DNA of 55,330 nucleotides, taken from the IMG/VR virus record IMGVR_UViG_3300020438_000051, positions 1-55,330 of that record; one strand, given 5' to 3'. The position numbers and the translations under genes were made by a program. Each line of letters opens with the position of its first letter. The stretch's first letter is position 1. The DNA is from a virus. This document shows, one piece after another, positions 2,602-53,195 of the stretch. The notes beneath the pieces are model-generated. The model saw only the letters and a program-made list of their open reading frames with translations, did no database searches and was not told where the DNA came from.

Positions 2602-5600
2602 TGGCAGTACAAGCACTTATAGGTCCAGCAATCAAAGCTTTAGCCTCAGGGTCAGTAAAAAAGGCAGCGATGGGTGCTGCAAAAGGTGCTGTAAAGGATA
2701 AGGCAAAGAATTTTGTTACTGGTAAAGGTAAAAAGAAGAAGGAAAAGGGTGGTAAAGGTGGTGCCCTGGTAAAATCCAAAGATGAAAGTGTTCAAGGAGA
2801 ACAACAGGGTGGTAGTATCGTTGCCTCCACACCGATAGTTGGTAACTATAGAGTAGAGTCACTACCAGATAAACCAGACATTGAGGGAAAACCATCTGAG
2901 TTATCTTTTGAGAGTGTCAATAATCAACTTGATAGTATTGCTGGTCTGACTGAGGTTCTCAAAAAAACATCACAGGTCAAGTTAAAAACCGCCAACAATA
3001 GAGAAAAGGCTGAACGTAAGGCTGCTGAAAAAGATAAAAAGAGACAAAAAGAAAATCTGTTGGAGAAAGGTGCCGGTTTTGTCGGTGGACTGGCCAAGGG
3101 TATGGTTAGTAAAGCTGCTCCATTTGATCCATTAAAATTCTTTACTCAAATATTCCTTGGTTCACTCCTATTGTGGATCACAAAGAACGGAAGTAAGATA
3201 ATTGGTTTTCTTAAGGCTGGACTAGCTTTCTTCAATAATTTTGGTAAGATACTTAAAGGAGCTTTCACTCTTCTAGGTAAAGGAATTAAAGCTGGCCTTA
3301 GAGTTATCGGCAAGGCATTTCCAAGATTGGGTAAACTTGGTAAATCGATAAAAGGTATTTTTAAGACTGCTGGTAAGTCGATAAAGGGTGCCTTTAAAGG
3401 TATTGGTAATGGATTGAAGAATCTGGCTAAAGGGATAATTAATAAAATCAAAAGCTTAGGTAAGTTTTTAATGAATCCATTTGGTGGTAAGAAACCACCG
3501 AAGGGATCTCCTAAGGGTATTGCGAATGCTGCTAAAAATGCTGCTAAGAAGGGTGGTAAGGTAACCAATTCATTCAGAAGAGTGTTAAAACAACACGGTC
3601 CTGAGGCAGCTGAAAGATTTAAACAATTAGTTGATAAGGGGATGAACCCTGCTAAAGCTTCAAGAAGAGTCAATACAGCTATCAAGGCTGGTAAGATAAC
3701 ATCTCAACCAGCTAAGGCTGTAGGATCAAAAATTGCTAAGAAAGCCGGTCAGAAGTCACTCCTTACTTTGGGTAAGGGAGCACTTAAGTTCCTTAAGAGA
3801 ATACCCGTCATTGGTGGTCTCATCACATTGGTCGTCTCCTTGTTGAGTGGTGATCCAATAAGTCAGGCATTGTTTAAGACAGCTGGTGCCGTCCTGGGTG
3901 GTTTCTTAGGATCATTCATACCTATCCCAGTTGTGGGAACATTACTTGGTGAACTTATTGGTGAGTATACTGGTGACCTGATGTATCATCTCTTTATGGG
4001 AGGTGGTCCTGAGGCCGTCGGTAAGAAGTTGCAGGAAGATATCAAGGGTATGTTATCCATGGGTCAGGCTGCTCTTAGTTGGGCTGGTGATGGATTCGAG
4101 AGATTAATGGATGGTCTTCCTAAGTTTGCGGTTCCTGGTTTTGTTCCTTTTGTTGGTGGAAAAGATGTGATTAATCCACTTCCATTACTCGCGAATCCAT
4201 TGTCGGTGATACCTAAAGTTTATAAGGCTTTCTTTACCAGAGATCCAATGAATAAGGGTGATGTTAAATCCGAAGAAAAACCTGAGGAGATAAAGATCCA
4301 ACCCGAAATGACCGATCCTGCTCCAGATGGATATAGGGAGGACTTGGAGAATGAACCAACTGTTGGTACAAGAACTAGAACTAGAACTACATCTGATGCT
4401 GTTTATTGGGGTCCTCTCTTAGAAACTATCGCGAAGAAGGAATCATATGGAGGTTCTTATGATTCAATATATCCATCCACCACAAAACAAAGGAAGTATG
4501 GTGGAAAGGCACTAACGGAAATGACAATAGCTGAGGCATCCAAATGGCAAGCATCAACTACTCTTGAAAGAGGATCTGCTGCGGCAGGTAGATATCAGTT
4601 TATGCATATTCTAAGTCAAGCAAAATCTGCTAAACTGAAGGGAACTGATATGTTCTCCCCTGAGAATCAGGATAAGATGGCTATCAGTCTGATTGTAAAC
4701 AAAAGAGAAATCACTCCTGAGATGATTAAAAATGATCCAAATGAAGCAATGATTCGTTTGGGTATGGAATGGGCAGCCTTCCCAATGCCTGTAGACATGC
4801 AGGGTAAGCATCAATATGTAAAGGCTGGTCAATCATACTATGCAGGAGATGGAAGAAACGCATCCGGTGCAACTGTTGCGGAAATGAGATCATCTTTAAG
4901 TAAACTTGGAGCTCCACCAGTACAAACCACCCCATTAACCACCACACCACAAGTACGACCAACCACACCAATGGCTGAGGCACCAGTAAAGGTGCAACCT
5001 GGAATTGTTACTCCAGCTACAACAAAGACTCCACGAGGAACTACAACTACACCTCAAACAACTCCATCTATACAAAATCCACCACCGGCAGCTGCTCCAA
5101 CTGGTACTGGTTTGACTAATGTTGTTCCAGTTGAAAACTTACAATCAATTGGTGGTGGGACTGGTGAAGTTGGTATGACCAGTGGAAGAGGTATGAGATG
5201 GGGTAAAATGCATAGAGGTGTAGATATTGGAACAAGTGGTAAGAGGGGATATTATGTTGCACTCAAGTTGAAGGGTAAGGTATCAGATGTTGGTACATTT
5301 GATGGGTATGGTAAGACTGTTGTTATCACCTCTGGTGGAAAAGACTTCTTGTTTGCTCACCTTGCACAGACCATGGTATCAAAAGGTCAATCATATAATG
5401 GTGAGATCATAGGTGAGATTGGAAACACTGGTGCAGGAACTGGTGAACACCTACACTTTGAAGTCAGTCCTGCTGGAACTGGTGGTTATCAACAAGATGA
5501 AGACCCAATGCCATATGTCAAGTATATTGCTATTGGTAAAATGGGAGATGGTTCTTCTGTTGGAACAAGTGATAGAACTCCTAATCTTTCGATACAGGAT

Positions 5601-47443: not shown

Positions 47444-48112
47444 ATGAAAAAGATTATTACATCATTGATGGCAGCAGTTACATTATCTGCATCTGCACCG
47501 GTACTTGCAGAACCTGTCGAAGAATATTACACCATGGATTCTATGGGTTGTATGTTACTTCAGGAATGTACTGATGATGTGAAAGAAGTATTTTCTCTAC
47601 TGGATATTTCTTCACAGTATGATAATACTGATTCATTTACTCCAGTGTCACAAGAGTTTAACAGTATGCTCATGTCACTGAATAAAATTGGTGTGAAGGT
47701 ATATCTTGCTGATGAAAAGTATTTTCCAGTAGGACATCGTGGTGTCTATCATACTGTAAGTAATAACTTCTTCTTGAACAAATCATTTATGGGTCGTCCA
47801 CATATTCTGATGAGTGTCATGCGTCATGAAGGATGGCATGCAGCACAGGATTGTATGGCAGGAACGATTGATAATAGTTTGATTGCAATTATCATGCCAG
47901 AAGAGAGTGTCCCTCCTATCTGGCGTGAGATGGTAGAAGCAACCTATCCAAAGTCTGCATGGCCTTGGGAAGCAGAAGCATCATGGGCAGGTAAGACCGA
48001 AGCAATGACTGCTGACGCACTAAATGCTTGTGCTTCTGGGCAGATGTGGACTGAGTATCCACCTACTCCACTAACCCGTGAGTATCTTGTTAAGGAAGGA
48101 TATATCAAGTGA
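47444..48112 (+). CDS. Exported protein with HExxH metalloprotease-like motif
   Basis: The 222-aa protein has a clear Sec signal peptide (MKKIITSLMAAVTLSASAPVLA, residues 1-22 in two parts; likely cut after A22), so it should leave the cytoplasm. H128-E-G-W-H132 in SVMRHEGWHAAQD matches the HExxH zinc site of gluzincin or related peptidases. E176/E178 in WPWEAEASWAG could supply the third ligand. Cys pairs (C37, C42, C137, C194) could make disulfides outside the membrane. A role in the host envelope during infection or lysis is inferred. No prosequence or known family can be assigned by eye. Confidence 0.65.
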   Translation: MKKIITSLMAAVTLSASAPVLAEPVEEYYTMDSMGCMLLQECTDDVKEVFSLLDISSQYDNTDSFTPVSQEFNSMLMSLNKIGVKVYLADEKYFPVGHRGVYHTVSNNFFLNKSFMGRPHILMSVMRHEGWHAAQDCMAGTIDNSLIAIIMPEESVPPIWREMVEATYPKSAWPWEAEASWAGKTEAMTADALNACASGQMWTEYPPTPLTREYLVKEGYIK

Positions 48113-48617: not shown

Positions 48618-48644
48618 CTGCCAACTAAATTGTGAGTATTATTA

Positions 48645-48998: not shown

Positions 48999-49187
48999 AT
49001 GGCACAAATTATCAAAAAACAATCAATTCTTGGTAGTAAAACTGTCTATTTTGTATCTGGAACCTCTTGGTCTGACGATAAATCATTAGCTAAAGTTTAT
49101 CCTAATAAATCATCAGCTAATGATGCCATGAGTAACCCTTATGGTACAAATGGCGGTTGGAATAATGCTACTACGGAGACAGTCTGA
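48999..49187 (+). CDS. Small late protein
   Basis: The 62-aa protein (MAQIIKKQSILGSKTVYFVSG) has beta strands at the start (IIKKQSILGSKTVYFV) and Asn/Gly/Ser-rich sequence at the end. It has a late promoter and overlaps the next gene by one base (TGATG), so both are probably made late and together, unlike their neighbours. Likely a minor virion or assembly protein; the role is inferred. Confidence 0.6.
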   Translation: MAQIIKKQSILGSKTVYFVSGTSWSDDKSLAKVYPNKSSANDAMSNPYGTNGGWNNATTETV

Positions 49188-49789
49188 TGAAAACATTTAG
49201 AGAGTTTATCTCAGAAGCTTCGATTCCTGATGAACTAGCAGGTGGTGCCTCTATTAGACAATCAGGTGAGGGTGGTAGAGTATATCGTAAGAGGAAGAAG
49301 TCCGAGGCAGAGACACGCCGAGTTAAGGCAATCGGTGGTGGTAAAACTGCACCTGTGTCATATAAAGATCGTAAAGATGTTGGTAGTCAACGTAAACGTT
49401 CTGAAACAGAACAACAACCAACAAAAGAAAGAGGAACAGCAGCACTTTCTGCTAAAGAAGCACAACGTAAGGCATATAGAGAACGTAAAGCGAGAGAGGC
49501 AGGTAATAAATCTACTCCTGAAACTAGCAGATCAAAGGAAAAAGAAGCATCTAAACTTCTGACAAAGAAAACAACACCTAAGAAAGTGTCTCCTAACTAC
49601 AAACCTGCACAATCAAGTGGTAAGACTCGTGCAGAACGTGACAAGATACGTGGAGAGGGTGAAAGATACCTAAAAGGTATCATGAAAGATCAAGAAACTT
49701 CTAAGTATAAGAAAGAAACTGGAACCAATCCTGATGCTAAGGGTAAAACAAAGATTCTTGGACGTGTCAATAAAAGAATGAGCACTTAA
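49187..49789 (+). CDS. Highly basic late protein, MKTFREF type
   Basis: The 200-aa protein starts MKTFREFISEASIPDELAGG, a short N-terminal tag common on late cyanophage proteins. The rest is almost entirely Lys, Arg, Glu, Ser and Thr with few hydrophobics (SRSKEKEASKLLTKKTTPKK), hence disordered and strongly basic. A packaged DNA-binding internal head protein would fit, with the N-terminal tag possibly acting as a capsid-targeting signal as in T4 internal proteins. This is inferred; no processing site is obvious. Confidence 0.6.
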   Translation: MKTFREFISEASIPDELAGGASIRQSGEGGRVYRKRKKSEAETRRVKAIGGGKTAPVSYKDRKDVGSQRKRSETEQQPTKERGTAALSAKEAQRKAYRERKAREAGNKSTPETSRSKEKEASKLLTKKTTPKKVSPNYKPAQSSGKTRAERDKIRGEGERYLKGIMKDQETSKYKKETGTNPDAKGKTKILGRVNKRMST

Positions 49790-50877: not shown

Positions 50878-50886
50878 GTATTATTG

Positions 50887-50923
50887 TTACTCACCTCTAA
50901 ACTGCCCCATTGATGTAAGACAC
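50887..50923 (+). repeat. 37-bp leader element, copy 3 of 7
   Basis: TTACTCACCTCTAAACTGCC then CCATTGATGTAAGACAC. The first T is 47 nt before the ATG at 50934. GAGTA (overlapping the upstream stop) and TACTC can form a small hairpin. Confidence 0.85.
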
Positions 50924-50933
50924 CACAAACATT

Positions 50934-51812
50934 ATGACTTCCACCCATCTCGAACATCCTGAAGATCTTATCCTCACGGGTGATGTTTCTGTGATTGATG
51001 CACTTTATGCACCCGCAGATATTACTATGAAGATGGATGGTATGTCACTTGTTTGGGGTACTAATCCTGAGAATGGTAAGTTTTTTGTTTGTACCAAAGC
51101 AGCATTCAACAAGAAAAAGATTCGTCTTTGTTATACTACAGATGACATCTTCACTCACTTTGGTCATCAAATAGAAGTCGTTGAGATCCTGTCATATTGT
51201 ATCAAGTATCTGCCCCGTACAGAGAACATTTATTGGGGTGATTGGTTGGGTTTTGGTCGGACTCAACTCCTAAAACCTAACACTATTTCTTATCTTTTCC
51301 CTGAGAAAATCTCTCAAAAGATGGTGATTGCACCTCACACTCAGGTATTTGTTGATGGTCCTATGTGTGACGCAACATGTAAACCATTGATTGAGATCTT
51401 AGATGACACCGCTATCATCAAGTGGGTGCAACCTTCTATCGATCGTCTTCCTTCCAATGAAACTGCACCGAATCTGAACACCTCTAAGGTTCAGTTCCTG
51501 ACAACTAAAGAGGCAAATGTTGCGAAACAGAAGATCAATTCCCTGGTCAAAGAGGGTCGTGAGTTGACTGATTCCAACCTATTTGATATTCTTGGTTGTG
51601 TCTATCTCACCAATCTTTATCAACTGATTATCGAGATCAAAGAAGACATCATGAATTCTATGATTATCAATGATGCACCTCGTAGTTTCATTTTTGATGA
51701 TGTAGAAACTGATGGTGAGGGTTATGTATTCCACACTGAGAAGGTTTCATTCAAACTTGTCAATCGTGAAGAGTTTGCATACGCTAACTTCACTGACGGT
51801 CGTTTCAACTAA
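50934..51812 (+). CDS. Ligase/nucleotidyltransferase-like protein (KxDG motif)
   Basis: The 292-aa protein has the ordered motifs of covalent nucleotidyltransferases (ATP-dependent DNA/RNA ligases): motif I K33-M-D-G in ITMKMDGMSLVWG, a motif III-like IYWGDWLGFGR (~99-109), motif IV E262-G in DGEGYVFHTE, and motif V K274 in VSFKLVNREE. The GTNPENGKFFVCTKAAFNKK segment after motif I matches an uncharacterised family in T4-like cyanophages. Size fits a small RNA ligase core with extra helices (~195-245). It may seal or cap nucleic acid; no substrate is known. It is led by element copy 3 without a Shine-Dalgarno. Confidence 0.65.
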   Translation: MTSTHLEHPEDLILTGDVSVIDALYAPADITMKMDGMSLVWGTNPENGKFFVCTKAAFNKKKIRLCYTTDDIFTHFGHQIEVVEILSYCIKYLPRTENIYWGDWLGFGRTQLLKPNTISYLFPEKISQKMVIAPHTQVFVDGPMCDATCKPLIEILDDTAIIKWVQPSIDRLPSNETAPNLNTSKVQFLTTKEANVAKQKINSLVKEGRELTDSNLFDILGCVYLTNLYQLIIEIKEDIMNSMIINDAPRSFIFDDVETDGEGYVFHTEKVSFKLVNREEFAYANFTDGRFN

Positions 51813-51818
51813 TTCATC

Positions 51819-51968
51819 ATGATTCGTTTTCTTTACCTCATTGCAATCGGTTCATTGTTCGTTGCCACTATTAACATCTTCTCTCCAGATAGTGAGGCAG
51901 AGAGGAGACAAGAGGCAAAATCTGCACTCGAAAGGCTCATGAGACCTCCCTCAAACGTTATTCAATAA
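51819..51968 (+). CDS. 49-aa membrane-anchored protein
   Basis: It starts MIRFLYLIAIGSLFVATINI, a single hydrophobic span, then a charged helix (AERRQEAKSALERL) and ends PSNVIQ. It lies 6 nt after the ligase-like gene, likely co-transcribed. The N-terminal span could be an anchor or uncleaved signal; function unknown. Confidence 0.5.
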   Translation: MIRFLYLIAIGSLFVATINIFSPDSEAERRQEAKSALERLMRPPSNVIQ

Positions 51969-51970
51969 AG

Positions 51971-52006
51971 TTACTCACCTCTAAATTGCCCTATAGTTAT
52001 AGACAC
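51971..52006 (+). repeat. 37-bp leader element, copy 4 of 7
   Basis: TTACTCACCTCTAAATTGCC then CTATAGTTATAGACAC. One base shorter than the others; the first T is 43 nt before the ATG at 52014. It starts 2 nt after the upstream stop. Confidence 0.8.
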
Positions 52007-52013
52007 CTACATT

Positions 52014-53195
52014 ATGACAATCACCCTCCGTCCACACCAGCAACGTGGACTCGATGCACTCAAACAGAATGCTATCGGTCAGGTGATTGTTCCGACTGGT
52101 GGTGGTAAGACTCTGATCGCAATCATGGACGCTATGCGTCGTTTTGAGATCAAAGTTCCTCGTGTGATTGTTGTTGTCGCACCTCGTATTCTTCTTGCAG
52201 AACAACTTTGTTCTGAGTATCTGGAGCACATCACAAACGCAAATGTTCTCCATGTTCATAGTGGAGAAACCAAACATTTCAAGACAACTAAATCAGAACG
52301 CATCAAGTTGTTTGTGGAGATGTGTCAAACCGTTCGTGAACATGTCATCATCTTCACGACATATCATTCTTTGCACCGTGTGCAAGAGTCTGGAATCCCT
52401 GTAGACACGATTTACTTTGACGAGGCACATAACTCGGTTCAACGTAACTTCTTCGGTCCTACAGAGTATTTCTCACGTCATGCAGATCGTTGTTACTACT
52501 TCACTGCAACCCGTAGGACTTCGCTCACTATCAACAAACCAGGGATGAACGATCGTGAGATCTACGGTGACATCATCACTCGCGTATCTGCACCCGAACT
52601 TGTTAATGGTGGATTCATCCTTCCCCCTAAAGTGAAGGTGATCGAGATGGATAAGGTGGACAGAGCATCTATTACTCCACACCTTGAGAGTAACAATATT
52701 CTCTCCACGATTGATGAGATGGATATCAAAAAGATCCTAGTATGTTCTAAGACTACGAAACAACTCACCACGATCTTTGAGACTGACTTTGCAGACCAAC
52801 TTGCACAACGTGGATATTCTTACCTCTACATAACTGCAAAGACAGGTGCTGTTGTTGATGGTAAGAAAGTCAGTCGTGAAGTATTCTTCGAGACACTGAA
52901 TGCATGGGGTAAAGATACAGACAAAAAGTTTGTTGTACTTCATCGCTCGATTCTGTCTGAAGGTATCAACGTGTCGCAACTGGAATGTGTCATCTTCATG
53001 AGGAACATGAATATCATTGAGATGACTCAGACTATCGGTCGTGTTCTTCGCAAAGGTGGACAATCGAAGACCTATGGGTTCTGTGTTGTCCCTGTTTATT
53101 CTAAGGTTGGTATCTCTACCGCCAAGGGATTGCAGACTGTTGTTGATACCGTGTTTGAAAAGGGTGAGATGCTTGACTCTGTTGTTCGTCGTTAA
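52014..53195 (+). CDS. SF2 DEAH-box helicase
   Basis: The 393-aa protein has full SF2 motifs: LRPHQQRGLDAL, motif I PTGGGKT (27-33), motif II DEAH (136-139), motif III TAT (164-166), motif V SEGINV (315-320) and motif VI QTIGRVLR (339-346). There is no extra N- or C-terminal domain. It is shorter than T4 UvsW (587 aa) but belongs to the same broad group of recombination/repair helicases, also close to the helicase cores of restriction enzymes. It likely unwinds branched DNA or R-loops in phage replication. It is led by element copy 4, with no Shine-Dalgarno before the ATG. Confidence 0.9.
   Translation: MTITLRPHQQRGLDALKQNAIGQVIVPTGGGKTLIAIMDAMRRFEIKVPRVIVVVAPRILLAEQLCSEYLEHITNANVLHVHSGETKHFKTTKSERIKLFVEMCQTVREHVIIFTTYHSLHRVQESGIPVDTIYFDEAHNSVQRNFFGPTEYFSRHADRCYYFTATRRTSLTINKPGMNDREIYGDIITRVSAPELVNGGFILPPKVKVIEMDKVDRASITPHLESNNILSTIDEMDIKKILVCSKTTKQLTTIFETDFADQLAQRGYSYLYITAKTGAVVDGKKVSREVFFETLNAWGKDTDKKFVVLHRSILSEGINVSQLECVIFMRNMNIIEMTQTIGRVLRKGGQSKTYGFCVVPVYSKVGISTAKGLQTVVDTVFEKGEMLDSVVRR

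Follow-up and report, generated by a model that had tools for sequence, protein, structure and literature searches.

Organization of the locus

The window analyzed here is a stretch of viral DNA 55,330 nucleotides long (positions 1 to 55,330 of IMG/VR record IMGVR_UViG_3300020438_000051). Near its end, the plus strand contains an intact open reading frame, running from an ATG to a TAA, that encodes a 292-amino-acid protein of the family DUF6267 (Table 1). The opposite strand of this segment is interrupted by stops in the same register. We propose that the product is a covalent nucleotidyltransferase, specifically a polynucleotide ligase, that has no OB domain.

A 22-base leader element, GTTACTCACCTCTAAAnTGCCC, occurs at positions 48644, 50000, 50886, 51970, 53415, 53988, and 54749, giving seven copies between 48644 and 54770 where none is expected. 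Each copy lies a short distance upstream of a start codon, and conservation extends beyond the element as far as that codon. The DUF6267 gene had been described as lying under this shared leader, and the repeat search bears this out, as the closest copy ends 26 nt before its start codon. Of 93 related loci, 57 also have the element 43 to 53 nt before the DUF6267 gene. Judging by its sequence, it could be either a promoter or an RNA leader. The UvsW-like helicase gene downstream has a leader copy of its own, and the DUF6267 gene and the helicase gene therefore probably share their timing. This helicase had been reported to adjoin the DUF6267 gene. In the window the two are separated by one 49-aa open reading frame, but the arrangement is confined to the window's clade and its nearest relatives, while a cytidyltransferase takes this place elsewhere in the family.

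Two further genes in this region attracted our attention. One (49187 to 49789, plus strand) encodes a K/R/G-rich protein of 200 aa with only a weak phrog match; its start, MKTFREFISEA, resembles the capsid targeting N terminus of T4 internal head proteins, making it a candidate packaged basic protein. The other (47444 to 48112, plus strand) encodes a secreted-looking protein with an HEGWH motif that matches phrog_591 (function unknown) and is a possible zinc protease.

Table 1. Coordinates of the DUF6267 gene, its motifs, and neighboring features in the window
Feature	Position	Strand	Basis or remarks
Shared leader element, upstream of DUF6267 gene	50886..50907	+	Repeat search
DUF6267 / phrog_455 / T4-GC71 gene	50934..51812	+	292 aa; ATG to TAA; PF19782 1e-59, phrog_455 4e-87
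N-terminal HLEHPED element (residues 5-11)	50946..50966	+	H5, H8, E10, D11 nearly invariant
Motif I KMDG	51030..51041	+	K33, proposed nucleotidylated lysine; K, D, G invariant (n = 377)
Motif Ia-like TKA (K55)	51093..51101	+	K55 is K33 + 22 residues
Motif III GDWL (D103)	51237..51248	+	D in 375 members, E in 2
Motif IIIa-like APHT	51330..51341	+	H135 invariant (n = 377)
Helical insert between IIIa and IV, residues 191-241	51504..51656	+	N202, K236 invariant
Motif IV EGYV (E262, G263)	51717..51728	+	Family alignment
Motif V SFKLVNR	51747..51767	+	K274; V276 at usual second lysine; R278 invariant
Small ORF (49 aa), between DUF6267 gene and helicase	51819..51968	+	Read from sequence
Leader copy upstream of helicase gene	51970..51991	+	Repeat search
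UvsW-like superfamily 2 helicase	52014..53195	+	ResIII/DEAD; phrog_16 DNA helicase; conserved neighbor in window's clade

Membership and distribution of the family

DUF6267 (PF19782) is the sole Pfam-A match of the window protein, with a score of 203 bits against a cutoff of 27 (E = 1.1e-59), and the homologues in P-SSM4 and P-HM2 are annotated as the cyanophage gene cluster T4-GC71. The preliminary description considered the family uncharacterized, which agrees with what we found: DUF6267 and phrog_455 are both listed as function unknown, no function had previously been assigned to the family, and a literature search returned no paper naming DUF6267. The PADLOC and NCBIfam models did not match the window protein. 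Its nearest named relatives are in Synechococcus phages RB11-B, S-B05, and RN05-S (62 to 63% identity). The family is present in at least 458 phage records, nearly all of them from Synechococcus or Prochlorococcus phages, with a few carriers among phages of Pelagibacter, Vibrio, and others; Methylophilales phages are added at a looser cutoff.

A genome scan yielded 15 DUF6267 loci, nearly all in metagenome-assembled bins, that are probably phage DNA; no cellular DUF6267 family was found among them. One locus comes from an isolate assembly of Nonlabens xiamenensis, in which the gene lies on a 188-kb contig, about the size of a T4-like phage genome, that is perhaps a phage assembled along with its host. 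The homologue in metaG-MbCM1 carries the name NrdB, which is probably a spread annotation error.

We also considered paralogy, with an early gene and a second copy in the replication cluster, as suspected from contig L008 and from phage S-T4. This was mostly rejected, since each tested phage genome has one DUF6267 gene, except S-T4. The two matches in S-T4 have identical scores and lie near opposite ends of the record, and we read them as a terminal repeat. L008, a 4.6-kb metagenome contig, has two different members, one A-type and one D-type (693 to 1574 and 3661 to 4539), and this pair may be a real duplication or a misassembly.

Conservation of the proposed nucleotidyltransferase motifs

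Conservation was assessed first in an alignment of 47 divergent members, which share 22 to 69% identity with the window protein, and then in a larger one of 377 distinct members. In the larger alignment K33, D35, G36, K55, H135, N202, K236, E262, G263, K274, R278, F281, and N285 are 100% invariant, and this invariance holds down to about 22% identity. Position 103 is D in 375 of the 377 members; the remaining two, both divergent, have E, which is the canonical residue of motif III and the one found in most ligases. The four motifs reported beforehand are where they were said to be, with KMDG at residues 33 to 36, GDWL at 102 to 105, EGYVF from 262, and FKLV from 273. Thus, the family has the sequence hallmarks of covalent nucleotidyltransferases in order: a strictly conserved lysine in a KxDG motif I, an acidic motif III, an E-G pair in motif IV, and a lysine in motif V. 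The corresponding positions are nucleotide- and metal-binding sites in the ligase/capping superfamily (PMC11494293; PMC4609770). The spacing had also been called right for a covalent nucleotidyltransferase, and it is ligase-like from I to Ia, from I to III, and from IV to V, but not from IIIa to IV, where 127 residues that include a helical insert make the interval long.

Motif V is without its usual second lysine, and motif VI and the OB domain are absent. The HLEHPED element (residues 5 to 11) lies 22 to 28 residues before the motif I lysine. The insert between IIIa and IV is about 90 residues longer in other clades and is a candidate nucleic-acid-binding part.

Shuffling the window protein 20,000 times recovered the bare motif order 10 times, and 7 of 1,155 other long open reading frames from related loci also have it, so that by itself the order is rare but only suggestive. 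A chance origin of the motifs is ruled out by their invariance across the 377 members.

Predicted fold

The AlphaFold2 model of the window protein, made with the family alignment, has a pLDDT of 91.7 and a pTM of 0.86. Its strands carry or adjoin the conserved residues in the superfamily order: strand 29-33 ends in K33, strand 50-53 comes just before K55 and is followed by two helices, strand 99-107 bears D103, and strand 130-139 bears H135. Beyond the helical insert (191-241), strand 263-267 follows E262 and strand 272-275 bears K274. The resulting order of elements (I, Ia, helices, III, IIIa, insert, IV, V) is the one expected for the superfamily. The model ends one helix past motif V (residues 278 to 287), with no OB domain or motif VI.

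Structure prediction had been suggested as a check, with a fold lacking the nucleotidyltransferase core counting against the proposal. The outcome does not refute it. All of the best 50 Foldseek matches in the PDB are DNA ligases, RNA ligases, tRNA ligases, or capping enzymes, but none of the 350,542 chains gave a match below E = 0.001, and the TM-scores are 0.15 to 0.32 with large rmsd values. The best of these matches is the Naegleria RNA ligase (5cou; E = 0.049, probability 0.69, TM-score 0.32, 13% identity). With so many chains to choose from, a best 50 drawn from a single superfamily is unlikely to arise by chance; the strength of the fold evidence thus lies in this enrichment and not in any individual match. 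In a search of predicted viral structures, an RNA ligase from Agrobacterium phage Atu_ph07 (E = 7.8e-4) was the first match outside the family to an enzyme with a named function.

A second model was made for a P-SSM4-like member with 32% identity. Among its listed matches, all of those with a probability of at least 0.09 are superfamily members; however, rank 1 is a tail protein (probability 0.03), and carbonic anhydrases (probability 0.01) are mixed in, so the support from this model appears weaker than that from the first. The two models are not fully independent, because nearly the same alignment was used for both.

Comparison with known ligases

Sequence comparison gave no link to known ligases. 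Searches of the PDB with the window protein and with a 47-member profile returned no match, and hhalign comparisons with the single sequences of T4 Rnl1, Rnl2, and gp30 were not significant. Against alignments of the DRB0094-type, Rnl2, and another RNA-ligase group, the best hhalign score was 23.0, compared to a maximum of 23.2 for column-shuffled controls. The relation to ligases therefore rests on fold and motifs rather than on sequence statistics, and DUF6267 falls outside the T4 Rnl1, Rnl2, gp30, and DRB0094-type families. In agreement, the window protein has no match to PF09511 (T4 Rnl1), PF01068 (ATP-dependent DNA ligase), PF09414 (T4 Rnl2/RNA_ligase), or PF01653 (NAD+-dependent DNA ligase); for PF09414 this extends to the whole window record and for PF01653 to 14 phage records.

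The T4 Rnl2 family (PF09414, including the DRB0094-type enzymes) has a similar motif order and similar spacing from the motif I lysine to Ia and to III; in T4 Rnl2, R55 lies 20 residues past K35, and in the window protein, K55 lies 22 past K33. By eye, the HLEHPED element and the K-x-V of motif V recall the DRB0094-type RNA ligases, which have TxHL before KxDG and K-x-V in motif V. T4 Rnl1 also has KxDG and a comparable distance from EGYV to FK (13 residues versus 12), but it differs in its FEF motif III, its K-x-K motif V (K-L-V in the window protein), and its C-terminal helical domain. DNA ligases with the superfamily fold are among the structural matches of the window protein, but it lacks the OB domain and motif VI of T4 gp30 and the other PF01068 enzymes and has no sequence match to them.

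The best fold match, NgrRnl from Naegleria gruberi, carries its own OB module, unlike the window protein. By likeness to its published description, RLIG1 (C12orf29 in human; a structure is available from Yasminevirus) appears to be the closest counterpart in layout, which does not imply membership in the same sequence family. Both proteins have KxDG, a basic motif Ia, and an EG motif IV, and the distance from motif IV to the motif V lysine is 13 residues in RLIG1 and 12 in the window protein. RLIG1 has been reported to have a His motif IIIa, one motif V lysine, no separate RNA-binding domain, and the Naegleria RNA ligase as its closest fold (PMC11494293), and the same is true of the window protein. 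Unlike RLIG1, the window protein has D rather than E in motif III, a long helical insert between IIIa and IV, and an HxxHxED element before motif I.

Genomic neighborhoods of the clades

A tree of 47 sequences separates DUF6267 clades that have differing neighbors. Clades A, D, and F and part of a freshwater group cluster together at 0.99 support, and the window is included in this cluster. In clades A, D, and F, the DUF6267 gene is found in a region of small genes; most loci of clades A (61 of 81) and D (57 of 80) have a UvsW-like helicase as a neighbor or no farther than about 4 kb away, with short-flanked loci also counted. A cytidyltransferase-like gene comes next in 50 of 67 (clade B), 55 of 57 (C), and 51 of 58 (E) testable loci. 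In these clades, gp41 is often no more than 4 kb upstream, and annotated phages show a gp43-uvsX-gp41-mazG cluster there.

DUF6267 and the cytidyltransferase are fused in locus L483 and also in a number of predicted proteins, one of them from S-PM2. For S-PM2 itself, RefSeq (NC_006820; L599, 3995 to 5774) splits the DUF6267 reading over two genes, the second of which is named cytidyltransferase, whereas A0A0M6VVW4, 591 aa long, matches the DUF6267 model as a single protein named cytidyltransferase.

Proteomics has placed the cytidyltransferase, T4-GC190, in virions (PMC3037559); its sequence begins with MKKFSAFLKEA. Internal proteins of T4 carry 10-residue capsid targeting sequences, which this N terminus resembles (PMC9026906). 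Comparable N termini stand before DUF6267 in 57 of 80 members of clade E and in 14 of 49 freshwater or related members, but not in the window's clade. Because of the virion location of the T4-GC190 partner and these targeting-like N termini, packaging of DUF6267 into virions is plausible in some clades.

Proposed function and alternatives

The motif residues are invariant, the fold is predicted with confidence, and its matches are concentrated in one superfamily; on this basis, we are largely confident that the window protein belongs to the ligase/capping superfamily and is likely to be adenylylated. On balance, we further favor its being a polynucleotide ligase that forms lysyl-AMP and represents a new OB-less branch with an RLIG1-like layout, acting on RNA over DNA. 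RNA ends are the more likely substrate than DNA nicks because there is no C-terminal OB/motif VI domain and because the reduced layout resembles that of RLIG1. The protein may, as had been suggested, take part in RNA end processing or repair. In the mechanism that we infer, with adenylylation, use of ATP, a sealing step, and a preference for RNA over DNA, K33 would attack the alpha-phosphate of ATP to give lysyl-AMP, with D35, D103, E262, and K274 positioning metal and phosphates and K55 and H135 holding the nucleoside. R278 would perhaps stand in for the absent second lysine of motif V. The AMP would then be handed to a 5'-phosphate end, and the adjacent 3'-OH would seal the break.

Among the abundant phages of the sea are the cyanomyoviruses, whose means of sealing nucleic acids in the absence of a recognizable ligase has been an open question. 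A 2010 review noted that g30 homologues had not been found in them and asked whether distant homologues had escaped detection or the host enzyme is used, considering the latter more probable (PMC2984593). DUF6267 is a natural candidate for this gap, and could be the missing DNA ligase itself. In that case it would take over the role of T4 gp30 and seal nicks while the phage DNA replicates or once the genome has entered the cell. Consistent with this, 12 of the 13 genomes with DUF6267 that were examined, 11 from cyanophages and one from a Methylophilales phage, lack any match to PF01068, PF01653, PF09414, or PF09511, the exception being one sub-threshold PF01068 fragment, containing a stop, in P-TIM68; T4, used as the positive control, encodes gp30, Rnl1, and Rnl2 but lacks DUF6267. 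The position within the gp43-uvsX-gp41-mazG replication cluster in several clades also fits. However, DNA ligases use the OB domain and motif VI, both absent here, for adenylylation and nick binding (PMC4609770), and a host ligase could substitute. Furthermore, Vibrio phage EniLVp02 has DUF6267 alongside a DNA ligase, Rnl1, and Rnl2; the proteins are thus not simply interchangeable, and DUF6267 need not be a plain substitute. We therefore regard the DNA ligase reading as unlikely. Similarly doubtful is a broader version, in which DUF6267 is the polynucleotide ligase of cyanomyoviruses replacing gp30, Rnl1, and Rnl2 and, carried in the head in several clades together with or fused to the cytidyltransferase, mends nucleic acids at the start of infection.

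The cytidyltransferase could instead point away from end joining, to a covalent nucleotidyltransferase that works with this partner and whose nucleotide would go to a small molecule, to a protein, or to the 5' end of an RNA. A HIGH-type cytidyltransferase-like gene lies directly downstream in three clades (B, C, and E) or is fused, its closest curated models are, weakly, nicotinamide-nucleotide adenylyltransferases, and the capping enzymes of the superfamily do transfer to acceptors outside ligation. We consider this rather improbable for the window protein, since the linkage is absent from its wider clade (A, D, and F), which has the helicase nearby instead, and ligases outnumber capping enzymes among the nearest fold matches. 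The weak E values of the fold matches, the nonsignificant profile comparison, and the neighboring virion protein T4-GC190 (PMC3037559) might also suggest a protein of the virion or of host takeover, structural or without catalytic activity, whose motifs only look like those of a nucleotidyltransferase. An inactive remnant would not be expected to keep exactly the catalytic positions strictly invariant over 377 members, and all of the best fold matches belong to one superfamily, so that this explanation seems highly improbable.

A conserved candidate gene for the ligase gap of cyanomyoviruses can now be named. If active, a polynucleotide ligase of the kind that we favor would form a compact branch with a His motif IIIa, an Asp motif III, a single motif V lysine, and no OB domain; it would bear on what constitutes a minimal ligase and could be a possible tool enzyme.

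Additional genes at related loci

Three Melnitz-like loci (L387, 1139 to 1560; L404; and L413) have a domain of about 130 aa (FTRHFMDRVNDARNKK...) fused to the N terminus of DUF6267. It has no match among the Pfam models and looked like a small RelE/BECR-type RNase domain. At three other loci (L093, 4063 to 4962; L094, 3881 to 4966; and L088, 3137 to 3946), the gene directly upstream of DUF6267 has a D...(S)xK pattern (e.g., KTDILIGNMRFSLKIG) and, by eye, might encode a PD-(D/E)XK-like nuclease.
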